The notes beneath the pieces are model-generated. The model searched no databases. It saw nothing but the letters and a program-made list of their open reading frames with translations, and had not been told where the DNA came from. Shown here one piece after another: positions 2,722-21,981 of a DNA stretch of 33,478 bases. Numbering within the stretch: position 1 is the stretch's first letter; the number at the start of each line of letters is the position of its first letter. The stretch is from a virus, in IMG/VR virus record IMGVR_UViG_3300020438_000137, positions 1 to 33,478 of that record, one strand, 5' to 3'. A program made the translations under genes and the position numbers.

Positions 2722-4029
2722 TTATGTAAATGTAGGAAACTTGTTAGCATAATCTGCACTCATTCCTCTAGTAAATGAACTGAAATTATAGTAGTCACGA
2801 CAGAAATCGAAAGTAAACTCAACATCAAGAAGATCGTTAACAAATAACTTTTTCATTTCTGGGTCATCACCTATAATATTAAACAAATCATCTGTAAATG
2901 TTTGTTCATCACTTATTAAACGACAAGGATTTATCTCCTTATTATTTAATATGTCTCTAGCATTTTTCTGGATTTGTTGCCAGAATGGGGTGTCATGTTC
3001 TGAACCAAAATGATACATCCATGCAGAATTTAATAACCAATCCCCAACAACCTCCTCATAATACCAACTGTTGATATTATTAACAAGGTCTATATTATTA
3101 TATGTATCGCCAAGAGCATAACTTGCCATCTTATCTGTCACATTATCATAATACATACCTGCCAACGCTTCAAGTGGGTCAAGAAATCCCAACGCATTAC
3201 CATTACGAGCATATCTACCACTATGATGCATTAGATAGTTAGAGAATCTAGATTTCCAAGTAAACTTATTATATTGATATCCATCCTGAGGTACTAAACT
3301 TCTAAACTCTTGTTGTGCTTCCTCTTCTGAAGTTAGATTTGAATTATATGCATAACCATAAGTTCTCCTACTCTGCAATGGAATTCCAAACATCCAACCA
3401 TTTCTAGTAGTTTGTGTTAATGTATAACCCCAGTCTGCAGGTTCTGGTAATCTAGTAGCAAGAACTGTATTACATGTTTCAAAAGGTGAATCAAAATAAT
3501 AATCATCATTTACCAGTGATCTGCCACCACTACAATCTAATACAAAATCAAATACCTCACCATCAACAACAACACCAAAGCAATGCCCACCTATAGGATC
3601 TTGATCGAAAGATATTGACTTTATCTTAGTATCTCTTGCTTCAAAGTTATAGCAACTCTCATTAGTTAAATGCTCAATAAAGAAACTACTGAATAATCTG
3701 GTATCAAAATGAATAGCAGCAGTACTCATAGGAAAATATCTGGTGAAGTCTCCACCATTTTTACCCCATCCTACAAATCTATTACCAAACTTGATAGTGG
3801 CATCAAAATAATCTTTAGAATCATATCTCAAATATGATGGTGGACTAGCAATTTGTCCTGATAAAGATGGTGTTGTTGACTCTCCAATACCAAATATGTC
3901 CACTGATGTATCATATATCCACACGATTTTATAATCATTCTCTGTATCTGCCTTGGTTCGTTCTTCTATCAATTGTAGAATAGAATTAATACCAATAACA
4001 CCTGCACCAATTACAGCAATCTTTTTCAT
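2722..4029 (-). CDS. Tryptophan halogenase-like flavoprotein
   Basis: A 435-aa FAD-dependent halogenase-family protein. The Rossmann motif GAGVIG is at residues 8-13, GIGESTTP begins at 47, and K80 in TIKFGNRFVGW sits where the catalytic lysine of PrnA lies (K79). DCSGG is at about 165, GWMFGIPL (a variant of GWxWxIP) at 211-218, and GFLDPLEAL matches the usual GF-DPLE motif. The family uses FADH2, oxygen and halide to make hypohalous acid, which is passed to the lysine. Members usually have about 500-540 residues, so this one is short. Its ATG overlaps the upstream stop by 4 nt. Similar genes are known in T4-like cyanophages; the substrate is unknown. Confidence 0.8.
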   Translation of the reverse strand: MKKIAVIGAGVIGINSILQLIEERTKADTENDYKIVWIYDTSVDIFGIGESTTPSLSGQIASPPSYLRYDSKDYFDATIKFGNRFVGWGKNGGDFTRYFPMSTAAIHFDTRLFSSFFIEHLTNESCYNFEARDTKIKSISFDQDPIGGHCFGVVVDGEVFDFVLDCSGGRSLVNDDYYFDSPFETCNTVLATRLPEPADWGYTLTQTTRNGWMFGIPLQSRRTYGYAYNSNLTSEEEAQQEFRSLVPQDGYQYNKFTWKSRFSNYLMHHSGRYARNGNALGFLDPLEALAGMYYDNVTDKMASYALGDTYNNIDLVNNINSWYYEEVVGDWLLNSAWMYHFGSEHDTPFWQQIQKNARDILNNKEINPCRLISDEQTFTDDLFNIIGDDPEMKKLFVNDLLDVEFTFDFCRDYYNFSSFTRGMSADYANKFPTFT

Positions 4030-20049: not shown

Positions 20050-20233
20050 TGTTGTTAGTCTTATACATCCTATCCAACACTTCATCTAATTCAGACTTAT
20101 GAAAGATAGGTTCATCAGCACCTACATTGCCATTTACTAATGGCCAAACGAATCCATCTGCTGTGATGGTAAAATAGTCCTCAGGATGCTTTTTAGCATC
20201 TAAGTCTATGTCGGGGTGATCGTCTCTAGACAT
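20036..20233 (-). CDS. Small acidic protein downstream of talC, unknown function
   Basis: A 65-aa protein beginning MSRDDHPDIDLDAKKHPEDY. The ATG at 20233 overlaps the talC stop by 8 nt; the frame is open further upstream to 20263 but that part lies inside talC. It is polar, with a short hydrophobic stretch (FTITADGFVWPLV) and a helical C-terminus, and no known motif. Tight coupling to talC suggests expression with the metabolic genes. Confidence 0.65.
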   Translation of the reverse strand: MSRDDHPDIDLDAKKHPEDYFTITADGFVWPLVNGNVGADEPIFHKSELDEVLDRMYKTNNNEGS

Positions 20234-20882
20234 TCTCCTGTACCGATTTCCAGTCTGCATCAAACAACTGTAATCCTTTATCTGTTAGTACATGGTTGTA
20301 CATCTTATCAAATACTGCAGGTGGCATTGTAACTACATGAGCACCATTAGCAAATGATTGAGATACACTATTCACATATCTAATAGAAGCGGAAAGAATC
20401 TCAGTGCCTTTTATGTTCTGAACATTATATATCTTAGATATTCTTTGAATTAGATCTAATCCAGCAATTGAATTGTCATCAAGTCTACCTACAAAAGGAG
20501 AAACATATCTTGCACCTGCTTTTGCTGACAATATTGCTTGTGCTTCATCAAATATTAATGTCACATTTACTCTAATCAGTTTTGCTGACAATTCCTTACA
20601 TACTGCTAGTCCATCGGGTGTACAAGGAACTTTAATAGTAGCATGTTCTTTTCCAAACTTTTCAATCAGTCTCTTAGCTTCATAATACATTTCATGAGTG
20701 TCACCAACAACTTCCATACTTATATCAGGTATCCCCATGTCTATGAGTTCTTGATATACCTCTTCTGGATCACGACCACTCTTCATGATAAGAGTTGGAT
20801 TTGTAGTTACACCGTCAATAAGTCCAGTAGCGTAATACTTTCTAATCGTTTCTGTATCCGCAGTATCTAAAAAGATTTTCAT
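20226..20882 (-). CDS. talC: Transaldolase (TalC/fructose-6-phosphate aldolase-like)
   Basis: A 218-aa single-domain transaldolase of the short type used by cyanophages. It keeps D6 (FLDTAD), the TTNPTL motif (26-31), the Schiff-base lysine K84 (ATIKVPCT) and a typical ending (HVLTDKGLQLFDADW). The enzyme moves a dihydroxyacetone unit between sugar phosphates in the non-oxidative pentose phosphate pathway. In cyanophage infection it is thought to help make ribose-5-phosphate and NADPH for nucleotide synthesis. It overlaps the previous gene's start-stop junction by 1 nt (TAATG) and is transcribed from the sigma70-like promoter at 21555-21583. A CP12-like gene in the same window supports the same metabolic shift. 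Confidence 0.95.
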   Translation of the reverse strand: MKIFLDTADTETIRKYYATGLIDGVTTNPTLIMKSGRDPEEVYQELIDMGIPDISMEVVGDTHEMYYEAKRLIEKFGKEHATIKVPCTPDGLAVCKELSAKLIRVNVTLIFDEAQAILSAKAGARYVSPFVGRLDDNSIAGLDLIQRISKIYNVQNIKGTEILSASIRYVNSVSQSFANGAHVVTMPPAVFDKMYNHVLTDKGLQLFDADWKSVQENV

Positions 20883-21112
20883 TAAGTAGTTCCTAAAGCA
20901 ATTTTACTGAATCCTATTGTTAATAGGAAGATGAACATGATTACCACATCCCACATTTTGTTCTTTATATAGAATGGTAAAGCGAGTAGTTCAAATACAA
21001 CATTGAAGCAAGCACCAAGATAAGTGCTGACATGTAATGTTATAAAATATCCTAATATTATACCATATGTCCCTACCATTCTAGCAGAGATTATAAGTTT
21101 ATTTGTGTTCAT
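20882..21112 (-). CDS. Small multi-pass membrane protein, unknown function
   Basis: A 76-aa protein with two to three hydrophobic segments, at about residues 13-30, 33-48 and 54-72. It overlaps the upstream gene by 14 nt and shares one base with talC (TAATG), so it is part of the talC operon. No family is recognised. It could be an inner-membrane or thylakoid protein. Confidence 0.7.
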   Translation of the reverse strand: MNTNKLIISARMVGTYGIILGYFITLHVSTYLGACFNVVFELLALPFYIKNKMWDVVIMFIFLLTIGFSKIALGTT

Positions 21113-21296
21113 CTACTAAAATTTCTGTATATACGATCTCATCTTCATCTAAAGTCGATTTAATAAAATTCAACACATTCATAAATTCTGCATAAGTTTC
21201 GTTTTCAAGTACTCTTCTCTCTCCCTTACTAGAGACGCAGCATACTCTACGAGAGCATACATCTACAACAACTTTTTCGACAAATTCTTCGGTCAT
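21099..21296 (-). CDS. Small cysteine-containing protein, unknown function
   Basis: A 65-aa protein, first gene after the leader RNA. The N-terminal half has three cysteines (VDVCSRRVCCVSSKGERR) in a beta-strand-like context and the C-terminal half is acidic and helical. No Shine-Dalgarno is visible before the ATG. It lies only about 15 nt beyond the U-tract of the hairpin at 21313-21358, so its translation and transcription may depend on passage through that hairpin. Confidence 0.65.
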   Translation of the reverse strand: MTEEFVEKVVVDVCSRRVCCVSSKGERRVLENETYAEFMNVLNFIKSTLDEDEIVYTEILVDEHK

Positions 21297-21311
21297 AATA
21301 AATCATTAAAA

Positions 21312-21548
21312 TAAAAAAAGACCATCTGCCCCACTTAGTAGTTGCATCTTAGGTCTTTAAAAAAAGGAGGGAGGTTGGGTTCCTGTATACCAACAAAGAA
21401 TGGGCATTACTACAGAGTAAATACATTCTTGCCTGAGACCCGACTGGTAAGTCGATTCTGCTTTCGCAGCAGCACCACCTGTGTCTCATCACCTTAACCA
21501 GCAGTATGCCAGTAAGTTTATTCAGTCACTCCCGATGTTGCGTCCAAC
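21312..21548 (-). ncRNA. Putative structured RNA or 5' leader upstream of the talC operon
   Basis: This stretch is gene-free. The transcript predicted from the promoter at 21555-21583 folds by eye into several elements. One is a three-way junction closed by TGAGAC/GTCTCA (21434-21439 with 21483-21488), with two inner hairpins: CTGC-GAAA-GCAG, with a GNRA tetraloop, and CGACT-TACC-AGTCG. Next is a nested hairpin AAGAATG/CATTCTT (21396-21402 with 21424-21430) enclosing TTACT/AGTAA. Then comes a GTTGG/CCAAC hairpin (21374-21394), and finally the hairpin with a U-tract. It could be a free-standing small RNA of about 240 nt or a regulatory leader. It matches no RNA family I recognise. Confidence 0.6.
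21313..21358 (-). terminator. Intrinsic terminator or attenuator hairpin
   Basis: On the minus strand AAAGACC (21358-21352) pairs with GGTCTTT (21323-21317), followed by further T residues and an AT-rich run. The loop contains additional short pairings (TGC/GCA and ACT/AGT). It lies between the structured RNA and the gene at 21296, so it would either end a small RNA or attenuate the operon. Confidence 0.55.
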
Positions 21549-21554
21549 TCTTGT

Positions 21555-21583
21555 ATAATAACAGACTCCTCACAGGTTGTCAA
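21555..21583 (-). promoter_or_regulatory. Near-consensus sigma70-like promoter
   Basis: TTGACA (21583-21578) and TATTAT (21560-21555) are separated by 17 nt, with an extended -10 TG (CTGT before TATTAT). This is the strongest promoter in the window. Transcription would begin near 21548 and run through the structured RNA into the talC operon. Recognition by host RNA polymerase, hence early expression, is inferred. Confidence 0.75.
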
Positions 21584-21622
21584 CCCCCTATGATAATTAA
21601 CATGCATTGTCTCTACCATTAT

Positions 21623-21667
21623 AAAAAATCCGATCAACATGACATTGATCTGAACAAGTGGATTTTT
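21623..21667 (-). terminator. Terminator of the baseplate operon
   Basis: A strong inverted repeat: AAAAATCC pairs with GGATTTTT, and inside it GATCAA pairs with TTGATC. On the minus strand a T-rich tail follows. It lies 21 nt after the stop of the last spike gene and just before the talC-operon promoter, so it separates late from early transcription units. By symmetry it might also act on the plus strand. Confidence 0.65.
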
Positions 21668-21687
21668 AATTAAACAACGAATCATTA

Positions 21688-21981
21688 CTATGAAACTGTC
21701 AACACTGTATCTGCAGCTGTAAGTGCGTTACCTAATTTACTTCCAGATATAGTAAATGTTTGACCACCTACTTTTATTTTTAAAGTTCCTTGTACCTCTA
21801 ATGATCCCTCTACAATCATATCACCAGTTATGGTAGCTTTACCAGATACATTTAGATTACCCTCAACATTGAGATCACCCTCAAATTTTGTATCAGAAAG
21901 AAAATTGGTCTCATCAGGAAACTCAACTGAACCACCAAGTATGGTTTTCTCTGAGCCATCCTTGGCTTTACTCATTCCCAT
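21688..21981 (-). CDS. Short beta-helical protein, possible spike tip
   Basis: A 97-aa protein whose centre (about 30-75) consists of short regular strands (FEGDLNVEGNLNVSGKATI, then VEGSLEVQGTLKIKV), as in a small triple-stranded beta-helix. It starts with ATG 21981 sharing one base with the previous stop (TAATG) and has a strong Shine-Dalgarno (AGGAG, about 7 nt upstream). It is the last gene of the baseplate operon, right after the spike protein, which suggests a spike-tip or spike-associated role like T4 gp5.4, though it has no visible PAAR motif. Confidence 0.65.
   Translation of the reverse strand: MGMSKAKDGSEKTILGGSVEFPDETNFLSDTKFEGDLNVEGNLNVSGKATITGDMIVEGSLEVQGTLKIKVGGQTFTISGSKLGNALTAADTVLTVS

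Follow-up and report, generated by a model that had tools for sequence, protein, structure and literature searches.

A full-length manA RNA with a predicted promoter and a companion hairpin ahead of a phage talC operon

What is the RNA encoded ahead of the talC operon of a T4-like phage, and does it control the genes that follow it? The locus lies in a 33.5-kb IMG/VR virus record (IMGVR_UViG_3300020438_000137), whose full 33,478 nucleotides are called the window here. An earlier note, made from the sequence alone, had described the minus strand from 21687 to 21297 as a gene-free stretch holding an operon terminator, a promoter, and a series of hairpins, and had proposed that its product is either a small RNA or an attenuating leader of the talC operon. 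We read and folded this stretch, searched the whole window against the RNA family database Rfam 15, and compared 234 related loci.

The window carries T4-like tail and baseplate genes, talC, and halogenase-like genes. Two adjoining genes (1333-2718 and 2722-4029, minus strand) match tryptophan halogenase (phrog_2928), an unusual cargo beside tail genes.

RESULTS

The RNA belongs to the manA family

The family manA (RF01745) matched the stretch with 185.5 bits against a cut-off (GA) of 55.2 (E = 2e-50), over model positions 1 to 192 of 192, and was the only match above threshold in the window (Table 1). We regard it as close to certain that the stretch, in which the earlier note had recognized no known RNA family, encodes a full-length manA RNA. 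manA was described as a candidate riboswitch by Weinberg et al. in 2010 (PMC2864571) and is included in Rfam 14 (PMC7779021).

Table 1. Features of the manA locus and the following operon (window positions; all on the minus strand)
Feature	Position	Strand	Basis or remark
Small ORF, 55 aa, phrog_2587-like	21518..21685	-	PHROGs match, E = 2.1e-5
Hairpin AAAAATCC...GGATTTTTT, formerly read as operon terminator	21623..21667	-	inside the small ORF
Sigma-70-type promoter TTGACA-N17-TATTAT	21555..21583	-	11/12 consensus matches; best match in 8 kb
manA RNA (RF01745)	21364..21549	-	185.5 bits; covariation on 66 relatives
manA parts: P1 hairpin, outer helix GGGAG/CUCCC, three-way junction, nested hairpin, CUGUA/UACAG kissing-loop pseudoknot	within 21364..21549	-	
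GAAA tetraloop hairpin CUGC-GAAA-GCAG of the junction	21458..21469	-	stem covaries strongly; loop mostly GNRA in relatives
U-tract after manA outer helix	21359..21365	-	sequence
Companion hairpin 3' of manA	21316..21359	-	62.1 bits with model R1; no Rfam match; covariation
U-tract of companion hairpin (predicted intrinsic terminator)	21313..21319	-	sequence; kept or lost by downstream gene
First gene of the operon, DUF7294 / phrog_662	21099..21296	-	start about 16 nt after U-tract
Second gene, phrog_2318	20882..21112	-	
talC, transaldolase / fructose-6-phosphate aldolase family	20226..20882	-	phrog_440, PF00923

The minimum-energy fold of 21549-21300(-) contained the three-way junction, the GAAA hairpin, and the nested hairpins that had been picked out by eye, all of which are also part of the RF01745 match, as well as the U-tract hairpin before the next start codon. 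The folding energy was not unusual compared with shuffled sequences (z = -0.71) and the z-score is uninformative, so the evidence for a structured RNA comes from homology and covariation. The earlier note had made its proposal depend on conserved and covarying stems in relatives, and these were found. On 66 diverse relatives, with the CUGUA/UACAG loop-loop pairing added to the Rfam structure, 93.8% of the pair cells were standard and 28 of 57 pairs changed on both sides (shuffled mean, 13.6; none of 500 shuffles as high), and structures slid along the alignment all scored far lower. The loop-loop pairing switched to AUGUA/UACAU (C-G to A-U) in 8 of the 66 sequences, with 90.6% of its cells paired; we infer that it is the pseudoknot to which the discoverers attached a question mark in 2010 (PMC2864571). 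Since a corrected manA alignment is already reported by Rfam to support 48 covarying pairs (PMC7779021), our covariation result is a confirmation and not a discovery.

We then looked into the distribution of manA. A pattern for its conserved core was found in at least 119 viral contigs and one genome contig, and blastn with manA matched 37 phage records, all from cyanophages or marine viruses, 12 of which were retrieved with their flanks. Further loci, numbered up to L240, came from later scans for the companion hairpin described below, and manA boundaries were set by profile searches. manA was absent from 399 of 400 host-family genomes, and the single match lies on a 189-kb contig with neighboring phage genes (a late sigma factor, an SbcC-like nuclease subunit, and a helicase). 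Because the sole genome match has such neighbors, manA is phage-borne within this 400-genome sample.

A dedicated promoter precedes manA

The predicted promoter of the window, proposed in the earlier note with the same boxes and spacing, proved to be a general feature of manA loci: a match of at least 10/12 lay within 85 nt 5' of manA in 147 of 148 nonredundant loci, compared with 3.9% of windows picked at random on the same contigs. As the -10 box ends at a near-constant distance from P1 across loci, the transcript should start at this first hairpin, at about 21548 in the window. A search of open-access papers turned up no RNA-seq or start-site data for the phages concerned.

Two variants of the promoter region were observed. 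In 52 of 148 loci (e.g., L007, L111, and L129; example, GAGGGTTGACACCCTCTTTTTTT), terminator and promoter are fused: a GC hairpin holds the -35 hexamer TTGACA in its loop, and its U-tract serves as the promoter spacer; such a terminator-like hairpin would insulate manA from upstream transcription. In 15 of 148 loci (e.g., L092, L054, and L077), the -10 box reads TATAAATA, a possible T4-type late promoter overlapping the sigma-70 one.

Contrary to what had been stated, the stretch is not gene-free. A small ORF matches phrog_2587, and its homologues in L044, L093, and L121 finish at the equivalent manA position; in all four loci the ORF reaches with its 3' end into the manA promoter and P1, covering in the window the first ∼25 nt of the RNA. 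The hairpin taken for an operon terminator does exist, yet its role as a terminator is doubtful because it lies inside this ORF. The gene preceding the RNA (21688-21981, minus strand; weak bactofilin-like or baseplate-like match) ends in TTGACAGTTTCATAG, which is the manA -35 box in L113. This identity suggests that the small ORF plus manA were brought in by a recombination swap.

A companion hairpin follows manA in a subset of loci

The U-tract hairpin of the window, AGACC-UAAGA-UGC-...-GGG-GCA-GAU-GGUCU (21359-21316, minus strand), is conserved as a 45-nt element whose asymmetric internal loop is invariant, although both pattern searches used to collect it fix the core, so that this invariance is partly by construction. 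Against Rfam 15, with E values up to 10, its only matches were at chance level and on the opposite strand. Among the loci then collected, the hairpin lay 9 to 19 nt after manA in 118 of 119 core matches, the remaining one being cut by a contig end; variants with an AACC/GGTT outer pairing lay 6 to 14 nt after manA in 20 of 21 cases, the twenty-first being L240. Wherever it could be checked, the hairpin was thus 6 to 19 nt 3' of manA. Both-side changes occurred in 4 of its 12 pairs (17 cells versus 5.8 in shuffles, on hand-chosen rows): the outer pair switches from G-C to A-U, and compensatory changes are seen in the inner stem.

Among loci recruited by manA alone, 33 of about 123 carry the hairpin. 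It is either present or absent, since loci without it hold no diverged remnant above 16.8 bits, compared with 62 for the window. Hairpin-bearing loci diverge by as much as 30% in their manA domains. In L113, the first downstream gene of the window stands right after manA and the companion hairpin is missing, so the two RNA elements are separable. In isolate phages, the hairpin had no blastn match (the query is short and this search weak alone), and a scan of 12 isolates with R1 found none.

The U-tract of the companion hairpin depends on the downstream gene

A U-tract stands right behind manA in 92 of 148 loci, compared with 3.7% of random windows. The second U-tract, that of the companion hairpin, ends at 21313 in the window, about 16 nt before the start codon at 21296, confirming the hairpin and U-tract that had been noted there. 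Among the 45 loci with hairpin and U-tract, the start codon lies 12 to 40 nt downstream in 37 (median, 25). Such a gap leaves no space for a promoter, so the next gene would be reached only by read-through; this spacing is attenuator geometry, as judged from the sequence.

The U-tract was kept in 28 of 28 nonredundant loci located before talC (9 loci), phosphomannomutase (7; PF03332), hsp20 (7), mannose-6-phosphate isomerase (3; PF01050), or purS (2). It was missing in 18 of 19 loci before gp32, where the start codon is found at a fixed 36 to 41 nt (P = 4e-12 for the dependence on the downstream gene, inexact since loci share descent). In hsp20 loci, 84 to 106 nt follow the terminator, enough for another promoter. 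Attenuation is not the mechanism at every locus, because neither the companion hairpin nor another terminator was seen in 56 of 141 loci and 25 loci have the hairpin without a U-tract.

manA occurs once per genome and changes neighbors

All 23 records with a match hold a single manA, and 13 of them are full isolate genomes: each of the 22 records of a first set had exactly one and, among 11 further isolates, S-SSM7 had one and the other ten had none. The first genes after manA fell into 33 clusters over 222 loci, with gp32 (66), phrog_431 (25), talC (23), phosphomannomutase (14), hsp20 (13), phrog_9772 (13), mannose-6-phosphate isomerase (10), and purS (7) as the main classes, start sites being called mechanically and hairpin-carrying classes being inflated by hairpin-recruited loci. 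Singletons were many and include glycine decarboxylase and a carbamoyltransferase. Within the genus Eurybiavirus, manA lies after gp23 in P-HM1 and MED4-213 and before gp32 in P-HM2. In P-RSM6 it stands before talC. PhotoRC-II, searched in 16 of the records surveyed for manA, was present in 14 and had psbA after it in 14/14. The mobility of manA is better explained by a portable module than by a sensor serving a single pathway.

Other RNAs were seen or searched beside manA. A tRNA-Gly directly follows manA in S-SSM7 (L302), and a tRNA-like sequence is found within a few nucleotides in L002, L027, and L073 as well; this adjacency may mean processing of a joint transcript. In L044, L103, L117, L120, L122, and L124, a sequence beginning with (A)CGTTCATCC and resembling the glutamine riboswitch stands in tandem after manA; a search with RF01739 gave no match to it in P-SSM4 or P-SSM3, and the glutamine riboswitch, tried as a second comparison RNA, remained mostly below the cut-off and was set aside. 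The wcaG RNA gave no match in manA genomes, and neither did its control.

DISCUSSION

We favor, with moderate confidence, the view that in the window phage manA is a portable, cis-acting 5' leader gated by a terminator. Host-type sigma-70 RNA polymerase would start at the promoter of manA, at about 21548, and make first the folded manA domain and then the companion hairpin. Were the hairpin to form, the polymerase would stop at the U-tract and release a short RNA of about 235 nt; were it prevented or bypassed, transcription would run into DUF7294, phrog_2318, and talC. Candidate inputs are a metabolite bound by manA, a factor acting on the internal loop of the companion hairpin, or the state of the RNA polymerase. 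This view is supported by the full-length RF01745 match, its covariation including the pseudoknot, the promoter in 147/148 loci, the hairpin with its spacing and both-side changes, the 12- to 40-nt gaps, the gene-dependent U-tract, and the separability of hairpin and manA in L113; termination in vivo, conditional read-through, and the direction of the response are our inferences. Against such a leader stand the terminator-less loci, the hairpins without a U-tract, and the hsp20 loci with room for a promoter; moreover, a pathway-specific regulator would hardly be expected to stand, as a single copy per genome, before more than 30 unrelated gene families.

A broader proposal, which we hold only tentatively, is that manA is not a mannose-type riboswitch leader and is instead a relocatable phage RNA cassette, one per genome, that would work in infected cells either in trans or on RNA polymerase. 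Promoter, structured RNA, and, in one lineage, a second RNA domain gating termination would be its parts, plugged before different operons.

The two functions offered in the earlier note, small RNA or attenuating leader, are both serious, and the short distance from U-tract to start codon together with the gene-dependent U-tract favors attenuation. The small RNA, a free-standing phage gene made of promoter, RNA, and terminator and acting in trans on host or phage targets, seems to us rather unlikely. It would make the genes after manA incidental and the Rfam type "cis-reg" wrong. It is kept alive by the promoter present whatever the neighbor, by the single copy in each of 23 records, and mainly by neighbors that change even within Eurybiavirus while PhotoRC-II stays with psbA; the U-tract right behind manA in 92/148 loci and the tRNA behind manA in S-SSM7 also agree with it. 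Yet unconditional termination 12 to 40 nt before a start codon would silence the next gene, the U-tract is lost depending on the gene, and the many terminator-less loci would make a leader-mRNA.

We give somewhat less credence still to an action of manA on the transcription or stability of the following genes that involves no metabolite, either by modifying RNA polymerase for read-through, as the epsC/EAR and put RNAs are reported to do, or as a structured 5' end that protects phage mRNA. In its favor, the RNA opens with a hairpin at its predicted start, terminators follow it, and the downstream genes are unrelated; in addition, Weinberg et al. report that the epsC motif, which their study also lists as a riboswitch candidate, has antitermination activity (PMC2864571). 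The large invariant loop and junction sequence, however, exceeds the needs of a protective stem, as does the metabolic bias of the U-tract class. Finally, hairpins arising by chance in AT-rich intergenic DNA, for which only the shuffle-like folding energy would speak, are refuted as an explanation by the 185.5-bit family match, the covariation, and the near-universal promoter.

Set against Rfam and the open-access papers found, four features of manA loci appear to be new: the promoter of their own, the companion hairpin, the dependence of its U-tract on the downstream gene, and the single copy with changing neighbors. manA is among the better-supported candidate riboswitches, and we found no ligand reported for it in the open-access papers searched. 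Its own promoter, single copy, and, in one lineage, gate hairpin define exact test constructs (start site, gate, and U-tract). Because talC, phosphomannomutase, and mannose-6-phosphate isomerase are frequent in the U-tract subset, hexose phosphates are the first candidate ligands to consider; as the neighbors change while the manA RNA does not, a ligand should not be inferred from neighboring genes.

Comparison with known systems

The RNA of the window resembles RF01745 in its full-length match, its helices, and its T4-like cyanophage setting near a fructose/mannose-type sugar gene. The Rfam model, in contrast, ends just past the outer helix and has neither a dedicated promoter nor a companion hairpin.

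The 11-nt GAAA tetraloop receptor reads CCUAAG...UAUGG, with a bulged U. The companion hairpin has a similar CCUAAG...(G)A[U/G/A]GG, with a variable base at the place of the bulged U, but differs by a G for U and an extra A. Its identity with the receptor was rejected, as the canonical sequence is not matched and there is no link to loop type; docking of the manA GAAA loop into it was likewise rejected (GNRA/other loops, 54/19 in loci with the hairpin versus 46/29 in loci without; P = 0.12).

As in riboswitches and attenuators with a terminator expression platform, a structured domain is followed by a predicted intrinsic-terminator hairpin 12 to 40 nt before the start codon. Here, however, the hairpin has an invariant internal loop of its own and persists without a U-tract before gp32, the neighbors of manA are functionally unrelated, and no ligand of manA is reported in the papers searched. 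A further system for comparison is the PhotoRC-II RNA (RF01717), another single-copy structured leader of the same cyanophage genomes; it always precedes psbA (14/14), whereas manA changes neighbors.
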